43,448 bases of DNA from Gammaproteobacteria bacterium. Lineage in GTDB: Bacteria; Pseudomonadota; Gammaproteobacteria; Methylococcales; Methylomonadaceae. Below, one piece after another: positions 22,545-31,977 of this stretch (position 1 is the stretch's first letter; each line of letters starts with the position of its first letter). Location of the stretch: the NCBI GenBank assembly GCA_018830325.1, contig JAHJSQ010000052.1, forward strand, positions 1 through 43,448, given 5' to 3'. A program made the position numbers and the translations under genes. Under the pieces are notes generated by a model. It saw only the letters and a list, made by a program, of their open reading frames with translations, was not told the DNA's origin and made no database searches.

Positions 22545-22631
22545 TTTTAACGCCGCCAACAACACGCGCAGCTTAGAAGTGAAGGCGAAGCCGCAACGAA
22601 AAAGCTGTCGCTGTGCTTGGCCTTGTTAGGG
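22545..22631 (+). repeat. attC-like recombination site (left)
   Basis: An imperfect 87-bp palindrome: TTTTAACGCCGCCAACA..GCGCAGC on the left faces GCTGTCGCTGTGCTTGGCC..GTTAGGG on the right. The AAC/GTT core boxes at the ends, the extrahelical mismatches and the size fit integron attC sites. The right box GTTAGGG (22625-22631) would place the cassette junction after G22625. This is the weaker of the two sites. Confidence 0.65.
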
Positions 22632-22665
22632 CACTTGACGTATACTTGTACGGAAAATCCGTACA
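22617..22665 (+). promoter_or_regulatory. Candidate promoter and operator of yefM-yoeB
   Basis: TTGGCC (22617-22622) and TATACT (22641-22646) are 18 bases apart and could be -35 and -10 boxes. TGTACGGA-AAA-TCCGTACA at 22647-22665 is a perfect palindrome 13 bases before the antitoxin start. The E. coli yefM operator is also built from TGTACA-type palindromes, so this is the probable YefM/YoeB autorepression site. Confidence 0.6.
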
Positions 22666-22678
22666 TCAAGGTGCCATC

Positions 22679-22951
22679 ATGGATACAATCAGTGTAAACA
22701 AATTTAGAGACAACCTGAAGAGCGTTGTAGAACAAGTGGTTAGCAGGCATGAACCACTCAAGGTAACTCGACGAGCCGGAGAGGCATTCGTTGTAATGAG
22801 CGCCGACGACTGGGAGCGAGGACAAGAAACGCTTCATGTTCTTCAAAGCCAGAGCCTCATGCAACAGATTGCCTACTCCCTTGAAACCCACAACCGTGGT
22901 AAAGGCTATATACCGACTGAAGAGCAAATGAATGAGATCACTGGTATTTGA
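22679..22951 (+). CDS. yefM: Phd/YefM family antitoxin
   Basis: A 90-residue antitoxin. The N-terminal half (DTISVNKFRDNLKSVVEQV...PLKVTRRAGEAFVVMSADDWE) is the Phd/YefM DNA-binding fold; the C-terminal tail, which neutralises the toxin, carries the QMNEITGI end. The start ATG at 22679 has AAGGTG upstream and lies directly after the palindromic operator. A longer in-frame start at 22613 would lie inside the attC site and is rejected. It overlaps the toxin gene by 20 bases, typical of type II pairs. The pair lies between two attC-like sites. Confidence 0.92.
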   Translation: MDTISVNKFRDNLKSVVEQVVSRHEPLKVTRRAGEAFVVMSADDWERGQETLHVLQSQSLMQQIAYSLETHNRGKGYIPTEEQMNEITGI

Positions 22952-23308: not shown

Positions 23309-23692
23309 CTATCCATAAAGCTTAACTTTCAACACCCGATTAAGCAGCCGGAAGTGCTTATCAAGTGAGTAAACATTGCAGCTATTTTGTTTTGCATTTT
23401 GTGCAATGATTAAATCAGGAATGCCGACCCCGTTAGCTCCACCTTTTAAGCACTTCACTTGATATTCAATAATCTCTTCCCAATGAATAGAAAGTGGAAC
23501 TTTATTTATCTCATGAAGAAGAGTAATGACTTTATTTTGCTTCTTTATTTTCAGATAAGGAATCAATTCAGCCAGAATAATATCGTTGGTAACTAACAGA
23601 TTTTCATCTATTAGATAATCTAGGTCTTTAGAGTTATCCCCACCCCTGAAGTAATCAATCCATATTGAAGTATCAACCAACACCTCCATCAA
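23309..23692 (-). CDS. vapC: VapC family PIN-domain ribonuclease toxin
   Basis: A 127-residue PIN-domain toxin. Acidic metal ligands are in place: Asp7 in VDTSIWIDYF, a Glu near 42 in ILAEL, an Asp near 93 in GIPDLIIAQNA and an Asp near 110 in LDKHF. VapC toxins cut specific tRNAs or rRNA. Two ATG codons, 23690-23692 and 23687-23689, are possible starts; the first overlaps the antitoxin stop. The gene ends four bases from the right attC-like site and is AT-richer than the surrounding core genes, suggesting transfer. It points against the YefM-YoeB pair. Confidence 0.92.
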   Translation of the reverse strand: MMEVLVDTSIWIDYFRGGDNSKDLDYLIDENLLVTNDIILAELIPYLKIKKQNKVITLLHEINKVPLSIHWEEIIEYQVKCLKGGANGVGIPDLIIAQNAKQNSCNVYSLDKHFRLLNRVLKVKLYG

Positions 23693-24343: not shown

Positions 24344-25708
24344 TCATTTAATCCAGATCGTCTTGGCATTCACAAACTCGCGAATACCATGATGCGATAA
24401 CTCACGCCCATAACCGGAAAGTTTGATACCGCCAAACGGCATCCGCGGATCGCTTTTTACCAAGCCGTTCACAAATGCCGCACCGCATTGTAGCTGTCGC
24501 GCCACGCGTTCACCGCGCGCGTTGCTTTGCGTCCAGACACTGCCGCCTAGGCCGAAGTCGTTGCTGTTGGCAATAGACACTGCATCATCTTCATTCTTGG
24601 CGCGAATCACGATTGCGACCGGGCCGAACAGTTCTTCGTGCCAGGCACGCATACCGGGTTTAACATGATCAATAATGGAGGCTTGGTAATAAGCACCACT
24701 GCCGGCTTCCGGTGCACAACCGGTGACAACCTTCGCGCCCGCCTCGATGCTTTCAATCACCTGCTTATGTAATTCATCGCGCAGATCGTGGCGCGCCATC
24801 GGTGCCAGGGTGGTATCTACACTCATTGGATCACCCGTACGCAGATCTTCCACAGCGGCTTTGAATTTTTCCAGAAATGCATCGGCAATCGCATCCACCA
24901 CGATGAACCGCTTGGCCGCGATACAACTTTGGCCAGCATTCATATAACGCGAGGTCACACCCTGCTTTACCGCTAGTTCCAGATCGGCATCATCCAGCAC
25001 GATAAAGGCATCCGACCCGCCCAGTTCCAGAACGGATTTTTTAATATTCGCACCGGCTGCCTCCGCCACCGATTTTCCGGCCGGCTCACTGCCGGTCAAG
25101 GTCACAGCCTTGACTCGTGGATCATCGATCACACCACGTACCTGAACTGATCCGATCATCAGTGTCGTGAAGACCCCTACGGGAAAGCCGGCCTCCTTAA
25201 ACACAGATTCAATTGCCTGCGCACACTGCGGCACATTCGAGGCGTGTTTCAACAATCCGGTATTACCCGCCACCAGTGCCGGAGCCGCAAAGCGAAAGAC
25301 CTGCCAGAATGGGAAGTTCCATGGCATCACCGCTAGTATGATCCCCAACGGCTGATAAGTGACCAGACTCTTGGCGGCGTCGGTTTCGATATATTCATCT
25401 TCGAGGAAACCCGGCCCGTGTTCGGCATAGTACTCACATACCCAGGCACACTTCTCGATCTCACCGCGCGATTCCTTGATTAGCTTACCCATTTCCCGGG
25501 TGATGATCGTGGCCAACTCTTCCTGACGTGCCCGCAAGACCTCCGCTGCCTTATACAGCAGGTCACAACGTTTTTTGATCGGCGTGCCGGCCCACGGCCC
25601 GGCTGCCAGTTCGGCAACATCCATTGCCTTGGACAACCGGGACGCCCCCCAGTTGTCCAAGGTCAGTATAGTGCTACCGTCAACGGGGTTGATTGCATGA
25701 AAGGCCAT
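24344..25708 (-). CDS. Succinate-semialdehyde dehydrogenase
   Basis: An aldehyde dehydrogenase of 454 residues, most like the succinate-semialdehyde dehydrogenases (GabD/Sad group) that oxidise succinate semialdehyde to succinate with NAD(P). Visible are [21 protein letters not shown], the catalytic Glu228 in LELGGSD, the nucleophile Cys262 in NAGQSC and the EELFGPVA motif. The start ATG has GGAG upstream. Its position beside the 2-oxoglutarate dehydrogenase operon fits a role near the 2-oxoglutarate to succinate step. CTG and GCC codons seem more common than in neighbours, hinting at transfer; not quantified. Other semialdehydes are possible substrates. Confidence 0.85.
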
Positions 25709-25902: not shown

Positions 25903-26292
25903 TTACAAGGCGAAATTCAAAAGAGTTAGTCCGATCCATACGAAACCGATCGTTGTTATCGCAAAACTGACAATCGTATAGGCTTTCCAAATGGTTTTAT
26001 CCCAAAAATTAGGATCGAAGGCCGCTATAACGAAAACGCCGGGGTTGGTCATGCCGCCGATGACGACGAGCCAGCAAGCTGCTACCGGCAGCGGAATTTT
26101 TACCGCATAAAAAGCCAAACAAAACAGTGCCATCAGTACAAAATCGACATGGGCTCTGACCATCGTTTTATAATCTTTTAGAAATCCGCCGTCTATGCCT
26201 TCGATAGGAAACCATTTGGCAAAGGTCATAAGCCATGCCGAGGCCAATACCGCGAAAATCATCAACACGGCTCCGATAAGTAATATTTCCAT
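25903..26292 (-). CDS. Small four-helix membrane protein
   Basis: A 129-residue integral membrane protein with about four hydrophobic helices (roughly 3-24, 50-68, 70-92 and 103-127). The RAHVDFVLMALFCLAFYAV and GMTNPGVFVIAAF stretches, with charged His/Asp near helix ends, faintly recall hydroxylaminobenzene-mutase-like four-helix proteins, but I cannot support a function. It sits between lpd and the aldehyde dehydrogenase on the same strand, separated from lpd by 160 bases with a small GAAGCCG..CGGCTTC hairpin at 26334-26359. It may be its own transcript. Confidence 0.72.
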   Translation of the reverse strand: MEILLIGAVLMIFAVLASAWLMTFAKWFPIEGIDGGFLKDYKTMVRAHVDFVLMALFCLAFYAVKIPLPVAACWLVVIGGMTNPGVFVIAAFDPNFWDKTIWKAYTIVSFAITTIGFVWIGLTLLNFAL

Positions 26293-26452: not shown

Positions 26453-27889
26453 TCAAGGAAGATGCAAGGACCTGTTTTCTATTGCTAGTGCCGCCTCATG
26501 TAAGACTTCCGAGATGGTCGGGTGGGCATGTATAGTTCTGGCTAGGTCTTCGCCGCTCGCCGAGAATTCCATCGCTAGAACCGCTTCGGCAATTAATTCC
26601 GAAGCATTGGCTCCGATGATGTGGATGCCTAGAATCAAATCGGTTTCCGCATGTGTGATGATTTTGACCAAACCTTCGGTTTTGTCGATCGATTCGGCGC
26701 GGCCATTGGATTTCAATGTGAATGTACCGGTCCGATATTTTTGTCCAATGGCTTGCAGCGCTTGTTCGGTTTGTCCGACCCAGGCGATTTCAGGATCGGT
26801 GTAGATGACGCTCGGCATGATGTTATAGTTGATCGGATTGTGTTGGTTGGCGATGTGCTCGGCGACGAATACGCCTTCCTCTAGGCCCTTATGCGCCAAC
26901 ATCGGCCCGAGTAAGGTCAAATCGCCGATCGCATAAACGCCGGGAACCGTCGTGCAGCAGTTTTCGTCGACATGGATATATCCGTTTTCATCCAAAAGCA
27001 GTTCGGCTTCGGGGGCTGCGATATTTTCCGAATTAGGCTTTCTACCCGTAGCCACGATCAGTTTGTCGAGTCGTAAAGTATGGCTGCCTTCCGGGTTTTG
27101 ATAGTCGACGACGACTTTGTTATTATTTTTTTTAGCCGAGGTGACGCGAGCTCCCAGACGCAAGTCCAGTCCTTGATTGGAATAGATTTTATAGGCTTCC
27201 GCAGCAATTTGGTGATCGACGATCGGTAAAAAAGATTCTTGCGCTTCTAACAAAATTACTTCGGAACCCAAGCGATTCCATATTCCAGCAAGCTCTAAGC
27301 CAATGACGCCTGACCCGATGATTCCGAGTCGTTTGGGGATGCTGGTCATGTTCAGCGCATAAGTTGTATCGACGATAAACTCGTTGTCGATTGGTGCGCA
27401 CGGTAGATCGATGGAGGTGGAGCCGGTCGCTAGTATTATATTGGGGGCATTGAGTTTGATTGGTTTGGCACCGTCGGCGGGTGTCACGCTGACTTGGTCG
27501 GCGTTGAGCAGCTTTCCTTGCCCATGATAATAGTTAATTTTTTTTTCGGCGAAAACATTGAGGATCTGCCGGCTTAATCGCGCTATCTTTTCATTTTTGC
27601 GGTCTATCATCTTCGGCAAGTCCAGTTTAATGTTCTCGACCGATATGCCATGATCGGCAAGCCCATGCCGCATTAAATCGTAGATTTTGGCCGACTCGAG
27701 CAGCGCCATCGAGGAAACGCAACCGGCGTTGATATAAGTCCCGCCCAGACTTGGATCGCCATTAATATTGGTCCAATGATCAACACAGGCTGTTTTCAAT
27801 CCTAATTGGGCGGCGCGGATCGCGGCGACATAGCCGGCAGGGCCGGCACCGACGACAATAACATCATAAGTTGATTCGGGTTTTGACAT
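26453..27889 (-). CDS. lpd: Dihydrolipoyl dehydrogenase-like flavoprotein lacking one redox cysteine
   Basis: The E3-type gene of the 2-oxoglutarate dehydrogenase operon, 478 residues. The FAD motif GAGPAGYVAAIRAAQLG, the NAD motif GSGVIGLELAG, AIGDL, and the C-terminal HAHPTISEVLHEA catalytic His/Glu are intact. The redox-active disulfide is not. Canonical GGTCLNVGCIPSK reads GGTYINAGCVSSM, so the first cysteine is Tyr52, with Cys57 retained, and the conserved Pro and Lys are also changed. I checked the bases: the codon is TAT. Ordinary dihydrolipoamide oxidation needs both cysteines, so this protein may be inactive as E3 or have another job. It follows sucB by 13 bases. Confidence 0.9.
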   Translation of the reverse strand: MSKPESTYDVIVVGAGPAGYVAAIRAAQLGLKTACVDHWTNINGDPSLGGTYINAGCVSSMALLESAKIYDLMRHGLADHGISVENIKLDLPKMIDRKNEKIARLSRQILNVFAEKKINYYHGQGKLLNADQVSVTPADGAKPIKLNAPNIILATGSTSIDLPCAPIDNEFIVDTTYALNMTSIPKRLGIIGSGVIGLELAGIWNRLGSEVILLEAQESFLPIVDHQIAAEAYKIYSNQGLDLRLGARVTSAKKNNNKVVVDYQNPEGSHTLRLDKLIVATGRKPNSENIAAPEAELLLDENGYIHVDENCCTTVPGVYAIGDLTLLGPMLAHKGLEEGVFVAEHIANQHNPINYNIMPSVIYTDPEIAWVGQTEQALQAIGQKYRTGTFTLKSNGRAESIDKTEGLVKIITHAETDLILGIHIIGANASELIAEAVLAMEFSASGEDLARTIHAHPTISEVLHEAALAIENRSLHLP

Positions 27890-27902: not shown

Positions 27903-29150
27903 TTATATGTTTAGCAATAAGTGCGCTGGAGATTCCAGGCATTCTTTGATGGTGACCAAAAACTGCACCGCTTCGCGGCCGTCGACCAAGCGATGATCGT
28001 AAGATAAAGCAAGGTACATGATCGGTCTGACGACTATTTGTCCATTTTCAACGACGGGTCGATCCTTGATTGCATGCATGCCTAAGATCGCGCATTGCGG
28101 CGGATTTAATATCGGGGTCGATAGCATCGAGCCGAAAATGCCGCCATTGGTTATCGTAAACGTACCGCCGGTCAGGTCTTCAAAACTAATGTTGCCTTCT
28201 TTGGCTTTTTTGCCGAAATCGGCGATATTTTTTTCGATACCGGCAAAGTCTAATTGATCGGCATCGCGCAGTACCGGAACAATCAAGCCGCGCGGCGTAC
28301 TGACGGCAATGCCGATATCGTAGTAGCCGTGATAGATAATGTCGTTACCGTCAATCGAGGCATTGATAGTCGGGAATTTTTTCAAGGCTTCGATCGATGC
28401 TTTGACGAAAAAAGACATGAAGCCCAATTTGATACTGTGCGTTTGCTCGAAGCGGTTTTTATATTGGTTTCGTAAATCAATCACATGATGCATGTCGACT
28501 TCGTTGAAAGTCGTCAGCATCGCGGCGTTTTGTTGCGCTTGCAGCAAGCGTTCGGCAATCTTTGCTCTAAGTCGAGTCATTGGGACTCGTTGTTCGGGTC
28601 TCAATGCAGCCGGAATCGTGGCCGGTTTCGAATCCGTTTGCACGGATTCCGGCGGTGTTTTTGTACGGGACGAGGTTTCGAGAACCGGTTCGTCCTGCAA
28701 ATATTCGAGAATATCGTTTTTGGTAATACGACCATGTTTTCCCGAGCCGCTAATGGCCGAGGGGTCGAGATTTTTTTCAACAACGAGCCTTCGGACTGCG
28801 GGGCTCAAAGGAATGTTGGCCGATGCGGCTTCCGGTTCTTTTTCGGCGGTCTGTTGCGGTTCATTGTCGGCATCGCTTGCTGGCGTAGCGGCGGTTTCTT
28901 CAGTCGCGGCCGCTTGCGGGTCGATGATAGCCAGTATTTCGCTGCCGACAACAATGTCGCCGTCGTTTTTCAGGATTTTCGTTAAAACGCCTGATTCGGG
29001 CGCAGGCACTTCGAGCACGACTTTATCGGTTTCGAGATCGACTAGATTTTCGTTTTTTGTGACTCTATCTCCGGGTTTTTTTTGCCAGTTAATGAGTGTG
29101 GCATCGGAAACGGATTCAGGCAGATTAGGAACGAGGACTTCAATGCTCAT
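27903..29150 (-). CDS. sucB: Dihydrolipoyllysine succinyltransferase (E2 of OGDH)
   Basis: The E2 core of the 2-oxoglutarate dehydrogenase complex; transfers succinyl from lipoyl to CoA. 415 residues from the ATG at 29150; the open frame is 20 codons longer but overlaps sucA. One lipoyl domain (lipoyl lysine Lys43 in [10 protein letters not shown]), an Ala/Glu-rich linker, a peripheral subunit-binding domain ([27 protein letters not shown]) and the catalytic domain with [12 protein letters not shown] near the end. AGGAAA precedes the start, just after the sucA stop, so the two are coupled. Confidence 0.95.
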
Positions 29151-29151
29151 G

Positions 29152-31977
29152 TTATTTTCCTGTGTGTTTTCCAAATAAAGCGGTGTTAACAACTTGTTGC
29201 TGTTGTTCAAGATGCTTCTTGAAATTGCCTACGGCGGGCGCTGCGGATGCCGGGCGTCCGGCATATTGCAGATTGATTTCGGTTGCCAACGTATCGACGA
29301 AATGGTGTCGTATTTGATACCAAGCACCTTGATTTTTGGGCTCTTCTTGACACCAAATCAAGTGTTCCAAATTCGGGAAACGATCGATTTCTTGTTTAAA
29401 CCGATTATTTGGAAACGGATACAGCTGTTCTATCCTGACAATGGCAACATGGTCGAGTTCGTGCTCCCGTCTGGCTTCCAAAAGATCATAATACACTTTG
29501 CCTGAACATAATATTAGACGGGTTACTTTATCCGGTTTAATCGGGTCTATTTCGCTGATAACCGTTTGAAACCGCCCTTTAGTGAGGCATTCCAGTGTTG
29601 ACACGGCGAGCTTATGACGCAATAAGCTTTTTGGAGTCATGACGATTAACGGTTTACGATAAGGGCGGAGTAATTGCCGGCGAAGTAGATGAAAGATTTG
29701 TGCCGGAGTCGTCGGTGCGCAAACCTGGATGTTTTGTTCGGCACAAAGCTGAAGATAGCGCTCCAGTCGGGCGGAGGAATGCTCGGGGCCTTGTCCTTCG
29801 TAACCGTGCGGCAGCAGCATCACGAGACCGCTCAAACGCCCCCATTTGGTTTCGCCGGAACTAATAAATTGATCGATAACCACTTGGGCTCCATTGGCGA
29901 AATCGCCGAACTGTGCTTCCCAAATTACCAGAGTTTCAGGGGCGGTAGTACTGTAGCCGTATTCAAAACCCAATACGCCTGCTTCGGAAAGTAACGAGTC
30001 GTAAATGTAAGCTCGGCCTTGTTCGGAATCCAGGTGATTGATCGGCAGGTAGGTTTTGCCGTCAATCTGGTTATGTAAAACGGCATGTCTGTGAAAAAAA
30101 GTACCGCGCCCCACATCTTGCCCGGTCAAGCGGACATTGCGTTTTTCCAGCAGCAAGGTTGCATAAGCCATGTTTTCGGCAAATCCCCAGTCCAGCGGTT
30201 GAGCGCCGGCGGCCATTTTATTTCGGCTGTCCATGATTTTGGCAACCCTGGGGTGTAATTCGAAACCGGTCGGCAGGCACTGTGACCTTTTATTACAGAA
30301 CCGGAGTACATCGAGCGATACCGAGGTTTTACAAGAAGCCGTCCACTTAGCGTGATGGTATTTTTCCCATAGCGCCGAGTAGGAATACACCTTGTTACTG
30401 AGAACCGGCCTGGAGACTACCATCCCGGCTTCCAGCATCGAAACGTAGTCGTTTTCGATATTTTGATCCTCTTCCTGTGTGATCAATGCTTCGGATATAA
30501 GTTTTTGGGTATAGATTTGGCGTGTGGTCGGATGTTTGCGAATTTTTTGATACATCAATGGCTGGGTCGTTGCCGGTTCATCCGCCTCATTGTGACCTAG
30601 TCGCCGATAGCATATTAGATCGATGACAACGTCCCGGTTGAAAGTCATACGGAAGTCTAAGGCAAGCTGAGCGACGAACGACACGGCTTCCGGGTCGTCA
30701 CCATTGACATGGAAGACTGGGATTTGCGCCATACTGGCAATATCGGTGCAGTAATAAGTCGAACGGGCATCTAGGGGGTTGCTGGTGGTGAATCCAACCT
30801 GATTGTTGATGACGACATGAATAGTTCCGCCGGTGGAATAGGCACGGGTTCCCGCCATATTTAAGGTTTCCATGACAACACCTTGTCCGGAAAAAGCAGC
30901 ATCGCCGTGGATTAAAATAGGTAGGATGGTATTGAAGCTATTGGGACCGTAACGATCTTGGCGTGCTTTAACCGAGCCTTCGACGACTGGGTTGATGATT
31001 TCCAAATGCGATGGATTGAATGCCAACGTGACATGAATGGGCCCGCCGGGAGTGGCGATATCTGAGGAAAAGCCCATGTGATATTTAACGTCGCCGGAAT
31101 TCATGCCGGGCGTTGAGGTGTGCATTCCTTTGAATTCGTCGAACAAGACGCTCGGGTTTTTTCCCAGGATGTTGACCAGGACATTTAATCGGCCGCGATG
31201 AGCCATGCCGATGACGACCTCTTTGATTTGCTTATCGCCGCCACGCTGTACGATATTATCTAAAAAAGGGATTAGAGACTCGCTGCCTTCCAGAGAAAAT
31301 CTTTTTTGCCCTACAAATGTACGATGCAAATATTTTTCGATGCCTTCCGCCGCGGTCAACTGCTTGTGGATGGAGAGTTTTTCTTCGGATGTTAAGTTTG
31401 GCTTGGCGCGGGTGCCTTCAAGCCGGTTTTTGATCCAACGTTTGACATCGGTATCCACGATATGCATGTATTCGCTGCCGATGCTTCCGCAATAAATTTC
31501 TTTCAATCTACCGAGAATTTCTCTGAGCGGAAGTCTGTCTTCTCCATATAAGGTGCCGGTATCGAATAGCGTATCCATATCGAGTTCGGTCAGTCCGTAA
31601 TATGCAGGCTCAAGGTCCGGAACGGAAGGGATCGATTTATTCAGTGGATTATTGTTGGCAATTTGATGGCCTCTAACCCGGTAATGATTGATAAGCCGCG
31701 CGACCGCAGATTGTTTTTTTACGCTTTCTTCGGTAAAGCCTTGCAGCTTAGCTAGACGGCCTTGAGATTGCTGGGCTAGGCTGGCGAATCTGTCAACAAT
31801 AGGACTATGAATGATCTCCTGTGCCATGCCGTTATGCAGCTTCTTAAATGTGTGTCTCCAACTCGGGTCGACCGAGTCGGGGTTTTGCAGATATTTTTCA
31901 TATAAGTCTTCGATAAATACGGCGTTTCCGCCATAAAGCGCGGAAGATTCTTGAAATAACTTGAGGAGGTCGCTCAT
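29152..31977 (-). CDS. sucA: 2-oxoglutarate dehydrogenase E1 component
   Basis: The thiamine-diphosphate-dependent E1 that decarboxylates 2-oxoglutarate and loads the succinyl group onto SucB's lipoyl arm. 941 residues (E. coli about 933). The N-terminal [17 protein letters not shown] segment, the [10 protein letters not shown] and AHRGRL region, the thiamine-site [19 protein letters not shown], and the C-terminal [26 protein letters not shown] stretch (read as separate motifs) are all intact, so no sign of decay is seen here, unlike lpd. First gene of sucA-sucB-lpd; its promoter should lie in 31978-32130, shared divergently with the DUF2914 gene. Confidence 0.96.

Follow-up and report, generated by a model that had tools for sequence, protein, structure and literature searches.

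Several relatives of dihydrolipoyl dehydrogenase (E3) manage with an incomplete pair of active-site cysteines. The soluble Si-specific transhydrogenase SthA, an NAD(P)H/FAD enzyme of the same superfamily, keeps the first cysteine and lacks the second. Rv3303c (LpdA) of Mycobacterium tuberculosis is an E3-like NAD(P)H-quinone reductase with a single active-site cysteine, and single-cysteine CoA-disulfide reductases are also known. The protein described here, encoded directly behind sucA and sucB, shows the reverse of SthA: the second cysteine is present and the first is missing. We label its gene lpdY; the name is our own. It lies in a 43,448-nucleotide stretch of DNA, called the window below. 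In an open-access literature search covering titles and the openings of abstracts, no description of a cysteine-less sucAB-linked E3 was found.

The window's genus is that of the model type I methanotroph Methylotuvimicrobium alcaliphilum 20Z, in agreement with the host supposed in an earlier reading of the window (hereafter the original prediction). An excerpt of PMC5023229 states that, although the genes are present, no one has yet demonstrated 2-oxoglutarate dehydrogenase activity in these methanotrophs. The cysteine loss in LpdY may bear on this old puzzle of the methanotroph citric acid cycle.

The sucA-sucB-lpdY operon and the active site of LpdY

The three genes of the operon are closely packed (Table 1): one base separates the sucA stop from the sucB start, and 13 bases separate the sucB stop from the lpdY ATG. 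SucA and SucB both pass the cut-offs of curated families, and SucB contains lipoyl, E3-binding and acyltransferase domains; the original description of sucA and sucB as intact thus holds. The intact lpdY frame includes the active-site block GGTYINAGCVSSM, with the motif starting at Gly49. Translation confirmed the central claim of the original prediction, that the interchange cysteine is replaced by Tyr52, and also its further points: Pro59 has become Ser, the conserved lysine has become Met61, and the FAD (GAGPAG, GD), NAD (GSGVIGLE) and His/Glu (HAHPTISE) motifs remain, the last with the catalytic pair His456/Glu461.

Table 1. Features of the sucA-sucB-lpdY operon in the window
Feature	Positions	Strand	Basis
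sucA, 2-oxoglutarate dehydrogenase E1	29152..31977	-	NF006914, 1349 bits (cut-off 764)
sucB, dihydrolipoyl succinyltransferase, ATG at 29150	27903..29150	-	curated family above cut-off
lpdY, third gene of the operon, for an E3-like FAD/NAD protein of 478 residues	26453..27889	-	TIGR01350, Pyr_redox_2, Pyr_redox_dim
TAT codon, Tyr52, at the interchange Cys position	27734..27736	-	translation; Y/F/H in 142/144 f1 copies
Cys57, second (flavin-side) Cys, present in the window's copy	27719..27721	-	translation; present in 108/144 f1 copies
Met61, at the conserved Lys position	27707..27709	-	translation; Lys in 0/144, always M/I/L/V/F

LpdY scores 475.7 bits against the dihydrolipoyl dehydrogenase family TIGR01350 (cut-off 408.8). 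Pyr_redox_2 and Pyr_redox_dim are complete, and LpdY has the FAD/NAD motifs and the dimerisation domain of such an enzyme; it lacks the redox-active CxxxxC, whose first cysteine is Tyr52, and the conserved lysine that follows the second cysteine. Two homologs without either cysteine, L025 (444.1 bits) and L056 (419.2 bits), also score above the cut-off, so TIGR01350 alone cannot tell an active enzyme from an inactive one. This family model names all three methanotroph copies run against it dihydrolipoyl dehydrogenase, including two that have no active-site cysteine at all; annotation by it therefore takes a complete dedicated complex for granted. The AlphaFold model of LpdY, based on 26 sequences, has a mean pLDDT of 90.2, and its best PDB match is LpdG of Pseudomonas aeruginosa (TM 0.96).

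A sequencing or assembly error can be ruled out. The original prediction allowed that resequencing might reveal a cysteine codon at residue 52; four other genomes of the genus, assembled in one or two contigs each, carry the same motif, and the first cysteine is missing from 147 of 147 copies in the family coded f1. The LpdY of M. alcaliphilum 20Z is 99% identical to that of the window and has the same motif.

Other genes of the window and its genome were recorded. Between lpdY and an aldehyde dehydrogenase gene lies a gene for a 129-aa hydrophobic protein (25903-26292, minus strand), 98% identical in another genome of the genus (G060) and without a match in a Pfam scan. Close together on opposite strands lie a gene for a Phd-family antitoxin (22616-22951, plus strand), which passes its cut-off, and one for a VapC-like toxin (23312-23692, minus strand), which reaches 53.6 of the 80 bits required. 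Elsewhere in the window's own genome (C155), the C-terminal part of a 726-aa frame, L003, contains a flavoprotein of the same superfamily with the motif GGDCLNTGCVPSK.

Spread, descent and selection of the cysteine-less protein

The comparison covered 144 lpdY copies of f1, from 143 genomes and 25 genera; 50 loci came from searches and 94 were retrieved by coordinates. In total 164 f1 genomes have an lpdY match, of which 19 were left out (partial genes or no coordinates). Three further f1 copies (L083, L084, L087), which also lack the first cysteine, bring the total to 147; counts per residue rest on the 144. The original prediction pointed to conservation of Tyr52 in related species as a check. 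The absence of cysteine is indeed general (144/144), whereas tyrosine itself is not: it occurs in 74 copies, the others having mostly His (41) or Phe (27), with Asn and Val once each. The lysine is likewise missing from every copy (Met 59, Ile 47, Leu 21, Val 16, Phe 1), and the conserved proline is mostly replaced. The second cysteine is kept in 108 copies, leaving 36 without any active-site cysteine; His456 is kept in 112 and Glu461 in 117. In L056, L062 and L127 four residues are missing at the GG that precedes the former redox helix, and Asp or Ser replaces the second cysteine. All 11 named methanotroph copies, including those of Crenothrix polyspora and a Methylovulum, also lack the first cysteine; they were not added to the 144 since at least some come from the organisms of coded genomes (L122 is L042). 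Outside f1, the first cysteine is absent from all four copies compared (one from f2, one from f5, two from f6). The two f6 proteins, L066 and L067, may be a separate paralogue and were counted apart, because they are long-branched and keep the lysine, and L067 (genome G216) is not linked to sucAB.

In relatives outside the methanotroph clade, both cysteines and the Pro, Lys, His and Glu are all intact in 81 of 81 proteins. These comprise 69 named relatives, which remain from the best 80 of 531 matches once methanotroph records are set aside (Pseudomonas, Competibacteraceae, Xanthomonas, Paraburkholderia and others), and 12 proteins from f7 and f8, two families of the methanotrophs' own order in which 20 genomes have a match. 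Set against 0 of 144 in f1, this shows that the loss is not due to chance; the division into cysteine-less and intact proteins was set after the motif had been seen, and the tree recovers it as one clade. LpdY very likely lacks normal E3 activity, judging by these residues. It is highly improbable that it remains an active E3 with altered chemistry, in which Cys57 alone or the second thiol of the substrate would carry out the dithiol exchange. Because the window's copy keeps Cys57, His456 and Glu461, a weak single-thiol lipoamide reaction, in the manner of the single-cysteine CoA-disulfide reductases, is conceivable there, but Cys57 is missing from 36, His456 from 32 and the lysine from all of the 144 f1 copies.

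In a tree of 77 rows (a quick search with the active-site columns included and several long branches flagged), the 51 cysteine-less rows form one clade with SH-aLRT support of 100, and its sister is the intact f7/f8 proteins. The horizontal import of a different flavoprotein was considered and rejected, as the clade stands beside sucAB-linked E3s of the same order and shares their operon position. Changes were counted over 175 rows on a second tree, built without residues 48-62. Residue 52 changed letter at least 14 times, but moved between the states cysteine, aromatic and other only 4 times at minimum; the corresponding minimum is 10 changes for the second cysteine, 9 for His456 and 6 for Glu461. 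These counts indicate that the protein can do without the thiols and the acid-base pair, but seemingly not without an aromatic residue at position 52.

By a simple Nei-Gojobori count, dN/dS within the genus is 0.009-0.047 for lpdY and 0.009-0.033 for sucA (10 pairs each, five genomes for lpdY). For pairs from different genera, in which dS comes close to saturation, the computable LpdY values are 0.045-0.151, against 0.032-0.036 for four f7/f8 pairs. Entropy was compared between 65 cysteine-less and 75 intact rows of similar mean identity (0.61 and 0.62). The mean entropy of the FAD domain is higher in the cysteine-less group (1.72 vs 1.34) and that of the central domain is lower (0.71 vs 0.97); the NAD domain (1.24 vs 1.25) and the interface (1.09 in both) hardly differ. 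The higher between-genus dN/dS and the more variable FAD domain point to a constraint weaker than that on a working E3. On these sequence comparisons, selection on lpdY is purifying, but looser than on a working E3.

Residues ~45-65 and ~102-120 are relaxed in the cysteine-less group, and two other stretches, ~284-306 and ~430-455, are held more tightly there than in the intact relatives; the single most extreme stretch in each direction was unmatched in 500 shuffles, which ignore the natural correlation along the chain, and 430-455 is the second-ranked stretch, not that one. Gly192, Gly194 and Gly197 of the NAD motif, an acidic residue (Glu/Asp) at 215 and Asp323 of the FAD site are found in all 144 copies, and Glu199 in 141. 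The stretch 430-455 includes Glu447, Asp448 and Arg451, which would be part of the dimer interface, close to where other E3s bind E2; Glu447 is present in 144 and Arg451 in 131 of the 144 copies, against 76 and 23 of the 81 relatives. By analogy, this stretch is read as a putative E2-binding region.

It is very unlikely that LpdY is in slow decay, a course in which sucAB would have borrowed another E3 and lpdY, its function lost, would survive by chance or for translational coupling. The looser between-genus constraint, the erosion of LpdY in g12 and g18 (including the four-residue gap at the GG motif), the long branches in g18 and g25 and the genomes of other lineages without any linked E3 (see below) would all fit such decay. 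However, the dN/dS within the genus is low, frames of at least 460 residues are open in all 144 copies across 25 genera, substitutions at 52 and 61 are restricted by class, and some stretches are tighter than in active E3s. These features suggest that lpdY has very probably been retained for a new function.

Linked E3s, LpdP and the 2-oxoglutarate step

A search of 301 genomes of the order found sucA in 295 and an lpdY orthologue (E <= 1e-95) in 188; these include the intact f7/f8 orthologues and no f4 genome. Many of the surveyed genomes are drafts, and the operon survey left out f3 and g5 (one draft). We take f4 to be the Methylococcaceae, with Methylococcus capsulatus as a member, f7 to be relatives of Cycloclasticus, and g11 to be Methylomonas. 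In the neighbourhoods examined, lpdY directly follows sucAB in 17 of 17 f1 genomes that have it, and an intact E3 does so in 3 of 3 f7/f8 genomes; no E3 stands beside sucA in 3 g11, 2 g21, 7 f4 and 4 f6 genomes. sucB is beside sucA in 15 of these 16 (the stretch of G210 has none). A 24% identical flavoprotein is encoded ~2 kb from sucA in G247. In two g13 genomes (L227, L228), the 15 kb examined holds sucA but no sucB and no lpd; such a lone E1 might act as a decarboxylase. Neither of two f3 genomes has a sucA match.

PF02461 (the AMO/pMMO family) was rejected as a divider for methanotrophy, since f7 and f8 also match it (237 of 301 genomes in all); hexulose-phosphate synthase was used in its place. 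It scores above its cut-off in 14 of 25 genomes, all from f1, f3, f4, f5 and f6, and in none of the 11 genomes from f7, f8 and f2. f2 is an exception to a strict link with the ribulose monophosphate pathway, as two of its genomes (87 and 92% complete) have no hexulose-phosphate synthase above the cut-off and the one f2 copy compared is cysteine-less. The pattern suggests that, in the methanotroph lineages examined, the sucAB-linked E3 has been disabled or is gone, and that f7 and f8 keep an intact one.

The suggestion of the original prediction that the complex may borrow another E3 finds a candidate in LpdP, the aceEF-linked E3, an orthologue of which, with both cysteines, is present in 30 of 30 genomes checked (29 by a motif script and the thirtieth, GGVCSNVGCIPSK, by eye). 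In the window's own genome, LpdP is found in an aceE-aceF-lpd arrangement and scores 524.3 bits against TIGR01350. It is quite likely, on these comparisons, that 2-oxoglutarate dehydrogenase relies on LpdP for its E3 step. As a marker of the bound E3, the E3-binding domain of SucB was tried; it looks alike in genomes with and without lpdY and hence does not reveal which E3 binds.

These results could offer a reason why the 2-oxoglutarate step is weak or dependent on another E3. One possibility, which we regard as doubtful, is that dead LpdY acts as a brake: it would fill the E3-binding domain of SucB, LpdP would reach the complex poorly and activity would be low, an arrangement suited to cells that obtain NADH from C1 oxidation. 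The operon position of lpdY, the E3-binding domain kept by SucB and the extra constraint at 430-455, with Glu447 and Arg451, are consistent with such a role. So are data from M. alcaliphilum 20ZR: 2-oxoglutarate dehydrogenase with NAD+ is given as N.D., a term left undefined in the part of PMC5802761 that holds Table 3, beside pyruvate dehydrogenase at 120 and 290 nmol/min/mg (PMC5802761). For succinate semialdehyde dehydrogenase a value of 80 is listed there. Nevertheless, no 2-oxoglutarate dehydrogenase activity was measured in M. capsulatus either, according to an extract of PMC6288188, and the seven f4 neighbourhoods have no lpdY. Since M. capsulatus is reported to lack the activity and g11, g21 and f4 lack the gene, the pseudo-E3 cannot be the whole cause.

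Nor is the step absent. Sections of PMC6373157, PMC6456754 and PMC10602362 cite Fu 2017 for a complete oxidative cycle, traced with 13C, in M. buryatense grown on methane, and describe little flux on methanol and several routes from 2-oxoglutarate; PMC6373157 also mentions, as data not shown by its authors, that a succinate dehydrogenase mutant of Methylomonas DH-1 accumulates succinate. The connection with the missing activity, offered as speculation in the original prediction, gains weight: the methanotroph lineages examined have a pseudo-E3 or no linked E3 and f7/f8 proteins are intact (12/12), but the pseudo-E3 would not account for all of it, and the cycle is reported to be complete in M. 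buryatense on methane.

Two genes downstream of lpdY lies the aldehyde dehydrogenase gene mentioned above (24344-25708, minus strand). Its product comes nearest to the succinate-semialdehyde dehydrogenases, with 557.6 bits where the cut-off is 730. The enzyme could use succinate semialdehyde if SucA decarboxylates 2-oxoglutarate without E3. Among the neighbourhoods examined, it is near sucAB only in the window's genus (one g29 genome has a 26% identical aldehyde dehydrogenase ~5 kb from lpdY), and it has a match at E <= 1e-80 in 7 of 30 genomes; an adjoining succinate-semialdehyde bypass was rejected as a general explanation on these grounds.

Proposed role of LpdY and comparison with known systems

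LpdY would be a vertical descendant of an ordinary sucAB-linked E3, whose dihydrolipoyl dehydrogenase function would have been lost once, early in the methanotroph part of the order. The simplest course would be that LpdP came to supply the E3 step and that LpdY ceased to oxidise dihydrolipoamide. In the sequences, the interchange cysteine and, in f1, f2 and f5, the lysine are gone clade-wide; the second cysteine and the His/Glu pair have been lost repeatedly as well, and an aromatic residue (Tyr, Phe or His) is held at 52. LpdY may have been kept in 25 genera for a task that depends on FAD, NAD(H) and a pocket lined by an aromatic residue, and on no thiol. We consider it reasonably probable, on sequence grounds, that LpdY is such an ancient pseudo-E3, a thiol-independent NAD(H)/FAD protein beside which another enzyme provides the E3 step. 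Its role is not universal, because g11, g21, f4 and f6 genomes do without a linked E3.

LpdY may still sit on or near the SucB core, where it would not turn over lipoamide but would serve either as a structural or regulatory subunit that holds NAD(H) or as a diaphorase-type NADH:acceptor enzyme; the chances that it is physically part of the complex appear evenly balanced. More tentatively, the LpdY of type I methanotrophs might stay on the complex and sense NADH or block E3 binding, the pseudoenzyme throttling the citric acid cycle at this step and lineages without LpdY simply having no dedicated E3. If true, this throttling would be the molecular basis for genes that are present and an activity that is unseen.

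LpdY could instead have left the complex and become a free NADH:acceptor flavoprotein, such as a quinone, metal or oxygen reductase, its old operon position merely kept; we think this possible, though not probable. The NAD domain is as constrained as in the relatives, the old positions of the first cysteine and the lysine hold aromatic and aliphatic residues, and the single-cysteine relative Rv3303c has quinone reductase activity. However, lpdY stands beside sucAB in each of the 17 f1 neighbourhoods examined, which points to a link with the complex; the domain scan found no added domain in LpdY, and the score against the NAD(P)H-quinone dehydrogenase family NF005883 is 257.1 bits, far under the cut-off of 479. 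The pseudo-E3 reading places a candidate pseudoenzyme, clade-wide and under purifying selection, inside a 2-oxoacid dehydrogenase operon, and it makes the puzzle of genes present and activity undemonstrated directly testable.

Among known systems, LpdY is closest to the LpdG/Lpd enzymes of P. aeruginosa (5u8u, 5u8v) and P. putida (5tr3), with which it shares the fold, the FAD/NAD motifs, the dimerisation domain and ~48% identity; it differs from them in the absence of the interchange cysteine and the conserved lysine and in the proline, which is mostly replaced. A one-residue insertion in GDLTLLGPML marks the f1 LpdY copies compared and is absent from those of f2, f5 and f6. LpdP of the same genome is also a TIGR01350 member, ~36% identical to LpdY, but has an intact CxxxxC and belongs to a pyruvate dehydrogenase operon. 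LpdY scores 292.9 bits against NF003585, the Si-specific transhydrogenase family of SthA, under its cut-off of 465, and Rv3303c LpdA (1xdi) is a distant match (E 3.1e-42).
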